Source: Rathayibacter rhapontici
Lineage (GTDB): Bacteria > Actinomycetota > Actinomycetes > Actinomycetales > Microbacteriaceae
Length of the DNA: 58,868 nucleotides
Assembly: GCF_001995175.1 (NCBI RefSeq)
Contig: NZ_MUKN01000020.1
Coordinates: 1 to 58,868 of the forward strand
Direction: 5' to 3'
The notes under the pieces: generated by a model
Told to the model about the DNA's origin: nothing
What the model saw: only the letters and a program-made list of their open reading frames with translations
Database searches by the model: none
Program-made: the position numbers and the translations under genes
Shown: one piece after another, positions 20,078 through 25,897 of the stretch
Layout: each line of letters opens with the position of its first letter
Numbering within the stretch: position 1 is the stretch's first letter

Positions 20078-22290
20078 CTACGCCTCCGCGGGGCGGCCCA
20101 GCGCGCGCACCGAGGTGACGCGGCGGCGGGCGATCGCGGCGACCGTCAGCAGCAGGCCGAACAGCAGCCAGAGCACGAGGCCGACGACCGCGCCGCCGAC
20201 GCCTCCGGTGCTCTCGACCACGCCCGACAGCGCGTTCTGCGCGGCCGACAGCGGCAGGAACCCGAGGGCGTCCTCGAACACGCCGGGCACCGTCGAGATG
20301 ATGCCCGCGCCCAGGCCGATGACCGCGGCGAGCATCGCGAGGAAGCGCCCCACTCCGCCCAGCAGCGCCACGAGGCCCTGGTTGACGGAGGCGAACGACG
20401 CACCCACCAGCATCGACAGCAGGGCGAAGCCGACGAAGGCGCCGGCGTCGAGATCGGCGACGAACTGCATCACGATCGCGACGGCGAGGCCCTGCACGAG
20501 CCCGATCCCGAGCGCCGGGGCGTAGGAGGAGAGGGCGAGCGCCGCGGAGGACCGGGTCGAGGTCAGCGCGCGGTGCGAGAACGCGGCGAGCACCAGGAAC
20601 GACGCGAGGGCGCCGAGCCAGAGGGCGATCGTGGTGAAGAACGGCACCGAGGAGGCCCCGAACAGCGACGTGGAGCTGCTCGCGTTCTCGACGGGATCCG
20701 CGACCACGTCGGCCAGGTTCTGCGACTCCGCCTCGGTGTAGGTCGGCAGCTGCGCGACGGCCGAGTCCAGGCCGGTGGCCAGGGTCCGCGTGCCGTCGGC
20801 GAGCTGCAGGGCTCCGTCCGAGACTCCGACGGCTCCTTCGGCGAGCTGGTCCGCTCCGTCGGCGGCCGAGGAGGCGCCGGTCGCGAGCTCGGCGGCGCCG
20901 TCGGCGGCCGAGGTCGCGCCGGTCGCCAGCTGAGCGGCACCGGTCGCGGCCGCCGAGGCTCCGGTCGAGAGCTGGGCCGCTCCGGTCGCGGTCTGGTCGG
21001 CTCCGTTGGCGAGCTGTCCGAGGCCGGTCGAGAGCGACGTGACTCCGGTCGCGACCTGGCGGGCGCCGCCCGCGGCCTGCTGCGTGCCCACGACGAGCGA
21101 GGGCGCCTCGGGGGTGCCGACGCGGATGCCCGCATCGAGCGCCTGCGTCGCTCCCGCCGCCGTCGCGGTCAGTGCGACCGGGCCGTCGGCGGCGGTGAGG
21201 GCGTTCGCGACGATGCCGCTCGCGGCCAGGCACTGCGGGTCGGCGCAGCCTCGAGCGCCTGCTGCAGCGCCGCGAAGGTCCCCGCGGTCGACTGCGCCGC
21301 GCCGCCCGAGAGCTGCGCGATCTGCTGGGTGCTCTCGCCGATCGTGACGGTGCTCGCGCTCAGCTGGTCGAGCCCGTCGGCGACCGCGGTCGCTCCGGTG
21401 CCCAGCTGCGCGGCGCCCGTCGCCGAGTCGCGGGCGCCGGTGGCGAGCTGCGCCACTCCGCCCGACAGCGCCGACGTGCCCGTGCCCAGCTGCGCCACTC
21501 CGCTCGACAGGTCGGACGCGCCGGTGCCCAGCTGCGCGACTCCTTCGGACAGCGCCGACGCGCCGGTCGACAGCTCGTCGATGCCGTCGGCGAGGGAGCT
21601 GGTGCCGTCGGCGAGCGAGGAGGCGCCCGTGCCGAGCTCGGTCGCTCCGTCGGCGAGCGTGCCCGCGCCCTCGGCCGCCTGGCCGATCTGCTCGTTCAAG
21701 TTGTTGAAGCCGACGTAGACGTTCTCGAGGTACGCGGTGGTGAGCTGCGTGTTCAGGAGGGACGTCGCGGTGCTCGTGACCGTCGCCGAGATCGCGTCGT
21801 CGACGAGCTTCGCCTTGTCGCTCGTGGCGATGTCGATGGTGGCCTTGGTCGCCGCCGCCGCGTCGCCCGCGTACGAGGTCGCTGCCGCTGAGAAGTTCGA
21901 GGGGATGGTGACGACGGTGGCGTAGGAGCCGTCGGCCAGTCCCTGGGCGGCGTCGTCCTTGTCGGTGAGGACCCAGGTGAAGTTCGAGGTCGAGTCGGAG
22001 CCCGAGACGTTCGCCACCGGAGTGGGGGACGCGGTCGGCGTCTCCTCGGTGCCGCCCGTGACCAGCCCCGCCGCGAGCTGGCGCCCGAGCGGCACGGTCT
22101 GCCCGTTGAGGTCGACCGGGGTGTCCTCGTTCACGACCGCGGCCGTGACCTGGTCGAGGCGCTGGGTCGGGTCCCACAGGGCCCAGACGAGCAGCCCGCC
22201 GATGGCGAGGGGGACCAGGACGATCCCGAGGAGGGTGAACCAGGACACCTTCTTGGCGCCGCGGGGACGCTCGAGGGAGAAGAGAGCCAT
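20078..22290 (-). pseudogene. YhgE/Pip-family membrane protein, one apparent frameshift
   Basis: The N-terminal part (MALFSLERPRGAKKVSWFTL, then a membrane helix to about 41) and the periplasmic DxTxV region (VVNEDTPVDLNGQTV) are typical of YhgE/Pip proteins. A long pseudo-repeat follows (ADGAxxLxTGAxxLxxG). The C-terminal part, with five membrane helices (SSVPFFTTIALWLGALASFL and on), is in another frame. They join at CTCGAGGCTGCGCCGACC near 21250; one extra base gives a normal protein of about 737 residues. It lies four bases from the MMPL stop on the same strand, so they form one transport operon. Confidence 0.82.
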
Positions 22291-22293
22291 CTG

Positions 22294-25107
22294 TCAGAGG
22301 ACCTTTGCGATCGCGCGGTCGGATGCCGCAGTCGGGACCGCGCGCACGTCGCGGTCGGAGGGGAGGAGGTCGTCGAGCGCGTCGGGCTCGACGGCCGAGG
22401 CGACGACGGTGAACGGGCGCTCGTGCTCGAGCGCGTGCGCCCGGGCGCCGTCGAGCTCGGCCCGCAGGTCGTCGCGCAGCCGCGGATCGGTGACCGCGTC
22501 GACGTCGTCGAGCACGAGGAGCGCCGGGTGCGTCGAGAGCGCCGCGCGCACCTCCTCGATCGGATCGGCGGCGCCGGCCAGGCGCACGAGGCCGACCCGG
22601 CCGCGCACCGCGGAGGCGCGGATCGGCACGACGAGTCCGTCGACCTTCAGGCGACCGGAGTCGGGGGCCAGCCGGCCCGCCAGCGTCAGCAGCAGGGCGG
22701 TGCGTCCCGAGCGGTGCGGTCCGTGCACGACGAGCGCCGCTCCGGCCGGCACCCGCACGGCGACGTCGCGGTAGAGCGGTCCGTCGGGACCGTCGAGCGA
22801 GAGGCCGTCGGCGGCGATCGCGTCGGTCGCTCCGGGCTCGGGCCACTCGGCGAGCGCGAGCTCCTTCGTCAGGCCCTCGCCCTCCACGTCGAAGGAGGGG
22901 AGGAGGCGGTCGAGCCAGCGGGGCATGTGCCACGCGCGGTCGCCGAGCAGGTGCAGGACCGCCGGGACCAGCGTCATCCGGACGATGAAGGCGTCGACGA
23001 ACACGCCCACGGCCAGGCCCAGCGCGATCGGCTTGATGTTGGTGTCGCCCTCGGGCACGAACGCCGCGAAGACCGAGAACATGATGACCGCGGCCGCCGT
23101 GACGACCTTCGCCGAGCCGACGAAGCCCGACTCCACCGCGGTCCGCGCCGAGCGCCCGTGGACGTAGTCCTCGCGCATCCGCGAGACGAGGAACACCTCG
23201 TAGTCCATCGCGAGCCCGAACAGCACGCCCATCAGGATGATCGGCATGAAGCTGATGATCGGGCCCGTCTTGTCGACGTGCAGGGCGTCGGCGAACCAGC
23301 CCCACTCGAAGACCGCGGCGACGGCGCCGAACGACGCTCCGACCGACAGCAGGTAGCCCAGCGTCGCCTTCAGCGGCACCCACAGCGAGCGGAACACCAT
23401 CGTCAGCAGGACCAGCGACAGGCCGACGACCAGGATGCCGAACGGCAGCAGGGCGTTCGCGAGCGTGTCCGAGATGTCGATGCCGACGGCGGTCTGGCCG
23501 GTCACCGCGAGGTCGACGCCGTACTCCTCCTGGAAGTAGTCGTGCCTGTCGCGGATCTCGGCGACCAGCGCCTTGGTCTCCTCCGAGTCCGGTCCGCCCT
23601 CGGGGATCACCTGGATGATCCCGGTGTCGGCGGTCTCGTTGGGAGTGGCCAGCGGCACGGAGGCGACGCCGTCGAGGCCCTCGATCTCGGTCTTGAGGTC
23701 GGCCATCAGGCCCAGCGGGTCGGTCGAGCCGATGATGGTGCCGGTGACGATGAGGGGGCCGTTGTAGCCGTCGCCGAAGTTCTCGGCGAGCAGGTCGTAC
23801 GTGTCGCGGGCGGGCGTGCCCTCGGCCTGGTAGCCGGCGTCCGGCAACGCGAGGCGCAGGCTCAGCGCCGGGATGCTCGCGACTCCGAGCACGCCGATGA
23901 CGGCGATGATCGTGACGATCGGGAACCGGGTGACGGCGCGGACCCAGCCGCGGAAGAAGCCCCGCGGGACCTCGGCGTGCGCGTGCGTGCCCGGCGAGGC
24001 GGGAGCCGCGTCGGGCTCGACATCGGTATCGGCGTGGGCTCCGGCGACCTGCTTCGCGGTCGCCTTCTTCTTCGCGCGCCGCTCCTTCGGGCGCAGGCGC
24101 TCGCCGGCGAATCCGAGCAGCGCCGGAGTGAGGGTGAGCGCGATGACCACCGCGATCGCGACTCCGCCCGCCGCCGCGATGCCCATGGTCGTCAGGAACG
24201 GGATGTTCGCGACCGACAGACCGACCAGTGCGATGATCACCGTGAGGCCGGCGAAGACCACCGCGGAGCCGGCGGTCGCGACCGAGCGCGCGGTCGACTC
24301 CTCCGGGTGCATGCCCTGCTTCAGCTGGTCCTGGTGGCGGCTGATGATGAAGAGGGCGTAGTCGATCCCGACTGCGAGCCCGAGCATCAGGGCGAGCAGC
24401 GGAGTCGTCGACGAGATCGACGCGAAGCGGGTCGCGATGAAGATGGCCGACATCGAGAGCGCGACGCCGAGCAGTGCGGTGACGAGCGGCATGCCGGCGG
24501 CCAGGAACGAGCCGAAGGTCAGGACCAGGACCACGAGGGCGACGATGAGGCCGATGGCCTCGGTGAGCGTCACTCCGGGCAGGTTCTGCGAGAAGAGGTC
24601 GCCGCCGAGCGACACGACGGAGCCGGCGGGCAGCGCCTCCTCAAGGGTCGTCGCCTCGGCCTGGAGGGCCTCTCGGGACTCCTCGGAGGTGGTGGTCGCG
24701 GAGCCCTCCATCTGCGCGGTGATGACGAGGGCGTTCCCCTCGTCCGAGATCGTGCCCTCGACGGTGTCGGAGTAGGGGTCGGTGACCGCCGCGACGCCCT
24801 CGATGCCGGTGAGCGCCGCGACGGCGTCGGCCACCGGCCCGGTGATGTCCGCGTCCTCGACGCCGCCGCCGTCCGGAGCGACGACGACGTAGCGCGCGGA
24901 GGTGCCGCTGACCTGCGGGAACGTGCGCTCGAGCTGGTCGAGCGCGGTCTGCGACTCGGTGCCCGGGATCGAGAAGCTGTTGTCGGTGCCCTGGTTCAGC
25001 AGCACGGCGCCGCCGCCCGCGAGCACGACGACGGCCAGCCAGAGGACGGCGACGAGACGGTGGGCCTGGTAGACCCATCGCCCGAGTCGGTAGAGCAGCG
25101 ACGACAC
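22294..25107 (-). CDS. MMPL/RND family transporter with C-terminal ABC-ATPase-like domain
   Basis: A 937-residue protein. Residues 1-735 are an MMPL-type transporter: a first helix at about 15-37, a large extracytoplasmic domain, a helix cluster with GIDYALFIISRH, a linker rich in Lys/Ala, a second such half, and AMDYEVFLVSRMREDYVHG. From about 764 an ABC-ATPase-like tail follows: DGPLYRDVAVRVPAGAALVV, a P-loop-like GPHRSGRT (796-803, Lys replaced by Arg) and Walker-B-like LLVLDD (863-868). No LSGGQ signature is visible. Such a fusion is unusual and ATP hydrolysis is doubtful. Its operon includes the YhgE/Pip gene and is divergent from a TetR gene. Confidence 0.9.
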   Translation of the reverse strand: MSSLLYRLGRWVYQAHRLVAVLWLAVVVLAGGGAVLLNQGTDNSFSIPGTESQTALDQLERTFPQVSGTSARYVVVAPDGGGVEDADITGPVADAVAALTGIEGVAAVTDPYSDTVEGTISDEGNALVITAQMEGSATTTSEESREALQAEATTLEEALPAGSVVSLGGDLFSQNLPGVTLTEAIGLIVALVVLVLTFGSFLAAGMPLVTALLGVALSMSAIFIATRFASISSTTPLLALMLGLAVGIDYALFIISRHQDQLKQGMHPEESTARSVATAGSAVVFAGLTVIIALVGLSVANIPFLTTMGIAAAGGVAIAVVIALTLTPALLGFAGERLRPKERRAKKKATAKQVAGAHADTDVEPDAAPASPGTHAHAEVPRGFFRGWVRAVTRFPIVTIIAVIGVLGVASIPALSLRLALPDAGYQAEGTPARDTYDLLAENFGDGYNGPLIVTGTIIGSTDPLGLMADLKTEIEGLDGVASVPLATPNETADTGIIQVIPEGGPDSEETKALVAEIRDRHDYFQEEYGVDLAVTGQTAVGIDISDTLANALLPFGILVVGLSLVLLTMVFRSLWVPLKATLGYLLSVGASFGAVAAVFEWGWFADALHVDKTGPIISFMPIILMGVLFGLAMDYEVFLVSRMREDYVHGRSARTAVESGFVGSAKVVTAAAVIMFSVFAAFVPEGDTNIKPIALGLAVGVFVDAFIVRMTLVPAVLHLLGDRAWHMPRWLDRLLPSFDVEGEGLTKELALAEWPEPGATDAIAADGLSLDGPDGPLYRDVAVRVPAGAALVVHGPHRSGRTALLLTLAGRLAPDSGRLKVDGLVVPIRASAVRGRVGLVRLAGAADPIEEVRAALSTHPALLVLDDVDAVTDPRLRDDLRAELDGARAHALEHERPFTVVASAVEPDALDDLLPSDRDVRAVPTAASDRAIAKVL

Positions 25108-25150
25108 GCGGTCTCCTGATGATCGAGGGGGAGGAGGACGATACGACGGT

Positions 25151-25195
25151 GTACCCGATACACGAATGTATCCGATACAGGAACGTATCCGATAC
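25151..25195. promoter_or_regulatory. Three evenly spaced palindromic operators (TetR-type)
   Basis: Near-perfect palindromes GTACCCGATAC (25151-25161), GTATCCGATAC (25168-25178) and GTATCCGATAC (25185-25195) repeat every 17 bases. They lie between the divergent MMPL (start 25107) and TetR (start 25244) genes, where a TetR repressor typically binds to control both. Confidence 0.85.
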
Positions 25196-25243
25196 AGTGA
25201 TTCCGCTCAACGCCCCTTGACAGCTCTCGGAGAGGATCCAGGA

Positions 25244-25897
25244 ATGACGGTGATCGACGCTCCCGAGCAGTCCTCCCGACGCAGCCGCACCCGCGAGCGG
25301 CTGCTCGACGCGGCCTACGACGTGTTCGCCGAGACCGGAGTGCACTCGGCCTCGGTCGAGCAGGTGTCGGAGCGGGCCGGCTTCACGCGCGGCGCGTTCT
25401 ACTCGAACTTCACGAGCAAGGAGGAGCTGTTCTTCGCCCTGATGGAGCGCGAGAACGGCGCCCGCCTCGCCGGGCTCGTCGAGCAGATGGGCCGCACGCT
25501 GCCCAAGCTCGCCGGCACCGCCGAGCCGCTGACCGCAGAGGCGCTGGGCGCGGTGGTGCTCGACTTCCTGCACGGCCCCTTCGACGACGACCGCCGCTGG
25601 TGCCTCGTGCAGGCCGAGTTCGAGCTGCTGGCCCTGCGCGACCCCGCCATCGCGACGCGCTACAGCGGGTTCCGGGCGCGCTTCGACGCCTCCCTCGTCG
25701 ACATCATCGGCTCGGCTCTGCGGGAGGTCGGCCGGGACTTCGCGCTCGAGCCCACCGCCGGGGTCCGGCTCGTGCTGGCGAGCTACGAGGGCGCCGTGAA
25801 GCAGTCCCTCCTCGACGGCGACTCCGACGGCCAGAGTCTCGAGCGGCTCCGCTCGTCCCTCACAGGAGTCGTGATCGCGGTCTCGACGCCGGTCTGA
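25244..25897 (+). CDS. TetR/AcrR family transcriptional regulator
   Basis: A 217-residue regulator. The N-terminal domain RSRTRERLLDAAYDVFAETG then VEQVSERAGFTRGAFYSNFT SKEELFFALME is the classic TetR helix-turn-helix. The C-terminal ligand domain is helical (TAGVRLVLASYEGAVKQSLL). The ATG at 25244 with GAGAGGA upstream is preferred over in-frame codons inside the operator array. Position and operators argue that it represses the MMPL-YhgE operon and itself; the inducer is unknown, likely a lipophilic or toxic compound. Confidence 0.92.
   Translation: MTVIDAPEQSSRRSRTRERLLDAAYDVFAETGVHSASVEQVSERAGFTRGAFYSNFTSKEELFFALMERENGARLAGLVEQMGRTLPKLAGTAEPLTAEALGAVVLDFLHGPFDDDRRWCLVQAEFELLALRDPAIATRYSGFRARFDASLVDIIGSALREVGRDFALEPTAGVRLVLASYEGAVKQSLLDGDSDGQSLERLRSSLTGVVIAVSTPV

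Follow-up and report, generated by a model that had tools for sequence, protein, structure and literature searches.

A 58,868-nucleotide stretch of DNA from Rathayibacter rhapontici (contig NZ_MUKN01000020.1; hereafter the window) carries a gene for an MMPL-family (RND) pump whose C-terminal tail resembles an ATP-binding cassette (ABC) domain, with a gene for a YhgE/Pip protein (hereafter Pip) directly downstream. The tail and Pip go together. At each of the 85 places with a tail, which lie in 81 genomes including the window's, a same-strand Pip match starts at −4 to +85 bases relative to where the frame that carries the tail ends. By contrast, none of 17 tail-less MMPL genes has Pip in the 1.0–1.5 kb behind it; 6 of these come from the class-level genome set, and the other 11 are paralogues found in 15 genomes. 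Because all tails with enough following sequence have a Pip gene directly next to them, the tail is likely a connector between the pump and a second transporter. We propose, with slightly better than even confidence, that the tail docks the MMPL protein onto a predicted ABCG-like Pip permease, letting the proton gradient instead of ATP drive Pip; taken separately, the docking seems fairly probable, and the proton-driven coupling from MMPL to Pip is possible but doubtful. In such an assembly, the cassette position that an ABC permease needs would be filled by the tail, which would contact Pip but could not hydrolyse ATP, and the energy for Pip would, as a further step, have to come from MMPL.

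The ABC-like tail of the MMPL protein

The features of the MMPL gene and its neighbour are as follows:

22891..25107, reverse strand: MMPL (RND) pump core, residues 1–739; open frame with a GTG start (PF03176, E 1.5e-90)
24358..24363, reverse strand: Asp-Tyr pair, residues 249–250, taken on the model of MmpL3 as the first proton-relay pair (alignment of relatives)
23200..23205, reverse strand: second Asp-Tyr pair, residues 635–636 (alignment of relatives)
22819..22890, reverse strand: conserved linker beginning DVEGEGL, residues 740–763, with D740, E742 and G743 unvarying across 92 tails (tail alignment)
22297..22818, reverse strand: degenerate ABC nucleotide-binding domain without a helical subdomain, residues 764–937, 174 residues (profile and fold searches, motifs)
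22699..22722, reverse strand: Walker A, GPHRSGRT, residues 796–803, with Lys replaced by Arg (Arg802)
22504..22521, reverse strand: Walker B-like LLVLDD, residues 863–868, with Asp868 where the catalytic Glu is expected
20078..22290, reverse strand: YhgE/Pip gene, next downstream of MMPL; first piece 21169–22290, remainder in another frame to 20078

A sequence-only reading of this locus had placed an ABC-like domain at about residues 764–937, and structure prediction followed by a fold search bears this out. The predicted tail model is confidently an ABC cassette fold, comprising a RecA-like core and an antiparallel β subdomain, and its best solved counterparts are TM_1403 (4yer_B), LolCDE (9rlj_D) and an ECF module (8bms_A). 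Only ABC proteins occur among the matches listed for the tail (60 in the profile search and 50 + 50 in the fold searches). PF00004 scores slightly above its cut-off, but in view of these listed matches an AAA domain was rejected. The motifs described by that reading (a P-loop with Lys changed to Arg, a Walker B-like LLVLDD and no signature) were all confirmed in the sequence. The window's tail has no ABC signature and no switch His at residues 900–907, and the strand before the Q-loop is separated from Walker B by 20 residues, compared with 73 in a canonical cassette (locus L150, counted by eye on the alignment); the helical subdomain has therefore been lost. Descent of the tail from an ABC nucleotide-binding domain is shown by the sequence profile, and the changes in the motifs and the deletion of the helical subdomain are shown as well; its ABC fold is a prediction. 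By its motifs the tail should not act as a normal ATPase, and its identification as an ordinary ABC ATPase was rejected on the same motif tests. Judging from MMPL topology, it should be cytosolic.

The pump core matches PF03176 in two stretches (304 bits versus a cut-off of 20.5). Both Asp-Tyr proton pairs, of transmembrane segments TM4 and TM10, are present; in an alignment of 91 rows, the first reads DY in 86 of the 88 lettered rows (2 differ, and 3 further rows have gaps) and the second in all 91. In MmpL3, these pairs are the residues for proton passage (accessible part of PMC10466384). Since both are kept, the MMPL core is, by analogy, presumably proton-driven.

The tail is also conserved in relatives. 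The sequence-only reading had named two refuting results, no ABC fold in structure prediction and no conservation in close relatives, and neither appeared. At E ≤ 0.001 it occurs in 105 proteins among the 7996 best-sharing candidates scored, including those of Rathayibacter, Cellulomonas, Leifsonia, Agromyces, Microbacterium and Isoptericola, and the nearest named relative among the matches listed is that of Rathayibacter sp. SD072 (97% identity over the best segment). Within the family to which the window belongs, it is present in 81 of 249 genomes and 30 of 85 genera (E ≤ 1e-12), and given this recurrence a chance or artefactual fused frame was rejected. The source annotations (MMPL family transporter, RND superfamily putative drug exporter, efflux RND transporter permease subunit) leave the tail unmentioned.

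YhgE/Pip genes and their ABC-like partners

The first piece of the window's Pip matches TIGR03061 (E 4.1e-35; 120.8 bits versus a cut-off of 96.15) and PF12698 (E 4.7e-9). The membrane part of the Pip model is predicted to have an ABCG-like (ABC-2, or type V) fold; a resemblance to ABC-2-type permeases had been suggested earlier. That the tail may serve this neighbour was likewise suggested beforehand, and gene order supports it, both at the tail loci and at other Pip genes, which have an ABC-like gene of their own in the same position.

The linkage extends beyond the family. Among named loci with downstream room, Pip lies behind the tail in 17 of 17, of which at least two are contigs shared with the family set, and at the class level it lies behind every one of the 23 MMPL frames that are extended by a long stretch (17 of them new; 21 match the tail query). 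The class search, made with a 248-residue query, also caught the MMPL core, and its tally of 192 of 296 therefore does not give the number of tails. One of the 85 places (L089) has a tail-bearing frame without a visible MMPL core. Left out of the linkage counts were L014, L018 and L022, which have no downstream room, and L226 and L228, which have none either and are second pieces of L210 and L214; the repeats L114–L118 were counted once. The paralogue control covered 30 match rows with loci examined, of 46. L219, scored as tail-less, has 155 extra residues in which the tail query finds no match, and L189 and L190 were scored as tail-bearing by length and reading, with no tail-query match at E 1e-3.

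Pip genes away from tails were surveyed upstream in 16 genomes of the window's family. Among those above the family cut-off, 19 of 21 have such a partner directly before them, in 17 cases an ABC-like gene and in 2 a cassette fused to MMPL; the cassette profile was partly seeded from the surveyed loci (13 of 20), and 5 of the 7 non-seed loci matched it. At the class level, 17 of 79 genomes have a Pip match, and all 13 above-cut-off Pips that lie outside the window's genome have an ABC-like partner (12 separate, 1 MMPL-fused). No partner was found at the five weaker, below-cut-off Pip-like matches of the class set, nor at L142, which likewise falls below it; a further below-cut-off match, G055:284440, lies outside these counts. 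Pip partners by gene order, these proteins are nevertheless catalytically degenerate in their motifs. In 28 aligned separate partners, the Walker A position is Lys in 2, Arg in 10, His in 2 and lost in 14, and neither SGG nor the catalytic Glu occurs in any; one (L236) has a His close to the switch position but not in it. The Lys-to-Arg change of the window's tail is thus common in Pip partners. The partners of four above-cut-off Pips (L230, L231, L233 and L234, from four genomes of 7.9–9.7 Mb in one class-level family, f25) carry GPSG[ST]GRT, and since all four sampled genomes do so, the Arg P-loop looks fixed there. The window's own genome has a second Pip locus (L162, G000:C96:1000-7000), where a TetR-like gene accompanies an unfused ABC-like gene whose P-loop is lost (TETEQRPT).

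Together, these loci form a graded series from a separate cassette, through MMPL with a full-length cassette, to MMPL with a trimmed tail as in the window; the MMPL-core tree leaves its direction unfixed. The fused full-length cassettes keep the P-loop Lys in 5 of 11 cases, L174, L175 and L178–L180 (GPSGSGKT in L178), with Pip 20 bases on, and have no P-loop in L188, L189, L191, L192, L166 and L167. Among 90 locus tails, the G-[KR]-[ST] pattern is kept in 20, the window's included (8 with Lys, for example GPHRSGKS, and 12 with Arg, as hand-counted on the motif list), and lost in 70, and 8 tails retain the helical part without a P-loop. The label 'helical part present' was assigned by length and reading to these 8 and to L166, L167, P0085 and P0087. 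On a tree of 94 MMPL cores, built by a quick method, the helical part switches once and the P-loop state at least six times.

On the other side of the MMPL gene, across a 58-base gap (25108–25165), lies a divergent gene:

25166..25897, forward strand: open frame for what we take, from its sequence, to be a TetR-type regulator, divergent to MMPL

A TetR-like frame occurs at 67 of 80 tail loci and is divergent in 59; five of the 80 are repeats (L114–L118, equal to L030, L031, L034, L035 and L056).

Weighing the readings

A docking part between MMPL and Pip is the most economical reading of these data. Several observations weigh against it, or against the energetic step attached to it. Cassettes decay also at Pip loci without a fused MMPL, so the MMPL energy source alone cannot explain the decay. 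The two exceptions in the upstream survey, L164 and L165, are second Pips of the window's genus whose preceding gene is not ABC-like, and Pip can therefore do without such a partner; that gene looks TetR-type on reading. The window's Pip frame is broken in this assembly, by either a real mutation or an assembly error, and is a single open frame in close relatives such as L009. The predicted Pip model is only moderate (pLDDT 78.9, pTM 0.60), and a Foldseek search with it gave no match at E ≤ 0.001; the top row, chain 9mvz_D of an MmpL5 complex (E 0.0085), was dismissed as a chance match of long helices, at a TM-score of 0.12 and a root-mean-square deviation of 40 Å. Finally, a mirror-tree test over 70 loci did not find special co-evolution of tail and Pip: their partial rank correlation beyond the MMPL core is 0.09, with 27 of 300 permutations as high, compared with 0.71 for core and Pip given the tail and 0.43 for tail and core given Pip. 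This pattern speaks for an MMPL–Pip unit, not for a specific tail–Pip interface.

Four other accounts of the tail compete with docking. It could be a nucleotide sensor, which we consider unlikely, if the most plausible of the four; the tail would then bind ATP or ADP, leave it unhydrolysed and turn MMPL, Pip or both on or off. The 8 Lys and 12 Arg P-loops fit a sensor, as does the joint keeping, in the window's clade, of the P-loop and the second Walker B Asp (both in 22 of 94 rows, neither in 71, Asp alone in 1 and P-loop alone in 0). However, this joint keeping reduces to four independent pairs on the tree and is not significant (p 0.125), and tails that have lost the P-loop are still linked to Pip, so nucleotide binding is not the common function. 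A sensor role would apply mainly to the minority that keeps the P-loop, the window's tail among them; in the window's clade the nucleotide site may still be held by something, perhaps binding without hydrolysis, and elsewhere the site is dispensable. With rather lower probability, the tail regulates or scaffolds MMPL itself, and Pip is merely a co-regulated neighbour. The covalent junction and the mirror-tree result, in which the tail tracks the core and not Pip beyond the core, favour this, and a cytosolic partner of an MmpL is known, as AcpM has been reported bound to MmpL5 (accessible part of PMC12346298). Against it stand the tail-less MMPL genes, none of which has Pip behind it, and the ABC-like partners that adjoin Pip also where MMPL is unfused.

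That the tail is a functionless, decaying relic, kept since it is in frame, is improbable. It does evolve faster than the core: its ratio of nonsynonymous to synonymous substitution rates (dN/dS) is 0.36–0.46 in comparisons with four Rathayibacter, where the core has 0.15–0.19, and 0.61 and 0.71 in comparisons with two strains further away, where the core has 0.33 and 0.30; the repeated changes of P-loop state point the same way. Nevertheless, dN/dS is below 1 in all six comparisons, and across the 85 places a stop inside the tail match occurs only in G199 and a markedly shorter frame only in G227. Some fold-core residues are near invariant (G811, R812, G818, V822, G824, P828 and R835; 91–99% of 92 tails). 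Least probable is a working ATPase, which would make the whole a conventional ABC transporter that carries a fused pump. It would suit the five fused relatives that retain both the helical part and an intact P-loop with Lys, but in these, too, the SGG core is missing, as are the catalytic Glu and switch His (L178 by reading), and the window's tail lacks the Lys, Glu, signature, His and helical subdomain. We retain docking of MMPL to Pip as the preferred reading. A bolder form of it is tentative and, on balance, unlikely: an RND–ABC hybrid in which the proton-driven MMPL replaced ATP as the motor of Pip, with the dead, trimmed cassette as mechanical coupling, and in which, more widely, the actinobacterial YhgE/Pip proteins would form an entire class of ABC-type permeases with hydrolysis-dead cassettes.

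Relation to known transporters

Gene order assigns YhgE/Pip a dedicated ABC-like partner in Actinomycetes, and one polypeptide ties Pip to an MMPL pump in many genomes of the window's order and some beyond. Two questions thereby become testable, namely the role of Pip and whether ABC-type permeases can run on something other than ATP, and the graded series shows an enzyme becoming an apparent structural part. In some Firmicutes, phage infection requires YhgE/Pip proteins. Literature searches, mainly of openly available papers, returned no account of MMPL–ABC fusions or ABC-like Pip partners; the component parts are of known kinds, and the searches did not show the combination of MMPL, ABC tail and Pip. 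The YhgE/PIP domain is described as without known function (accessible part of PMC4999554), and YhgE and MMPL occur together in two papers, both on other subjects. One of them, a partly accessible study (PMC9782250), lists as raised in expression YhgE/Pip and MMPL genes whose tags, F1721_04135 and F1721_04140, adjoin, under an ambiguous caption that we do not use as support.

The pump core is MmpL3-like in PF03176 and both Asp-Tyr pairs, and the NCBIfam MmpL3 model aligns over residues 33–735, although with 196 bits it stays far short of the 1400-bit cut-off. The accessible part of PMC10466384 mentions no ABC-derived tail on MmpL3, whereas here an ABC remnant follows the core and Pip follows the remnant. 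The neighbour belongs with the YhgE/Pip family (TIGR03061; TC 9.B.74), whose homologues include putative ABC-2 superfamily transporters; a dedicated ABC-like partner, separate or MMPL-fused, is not mentioned in the accessible part of the source (PMC3924187). Pip differs from the ABCG, or type V, exporters (ABCG2, ABCG1 and ABCG5/8) in its long helical stretch of heptad repeats and in lacking a built-in cassette, and the identity is about 11%. Relative to the cassettes of ABC transporters, the tail lacks the helical subdomain, signature and switch His and has Arg for Lys and Asp for Glu. In asymmetric ABC transporters (TAP1, CFTR NBD1 and ABCG5), a degenerate cassette pairs with a competent second one. 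The tail is like these in being a cassette that has lost catalytic residues and is kept, probably, as a structural partner, and differs in being fused to an RND pump and in being the sole cassette-like sequence noted between MMPL and Pip.
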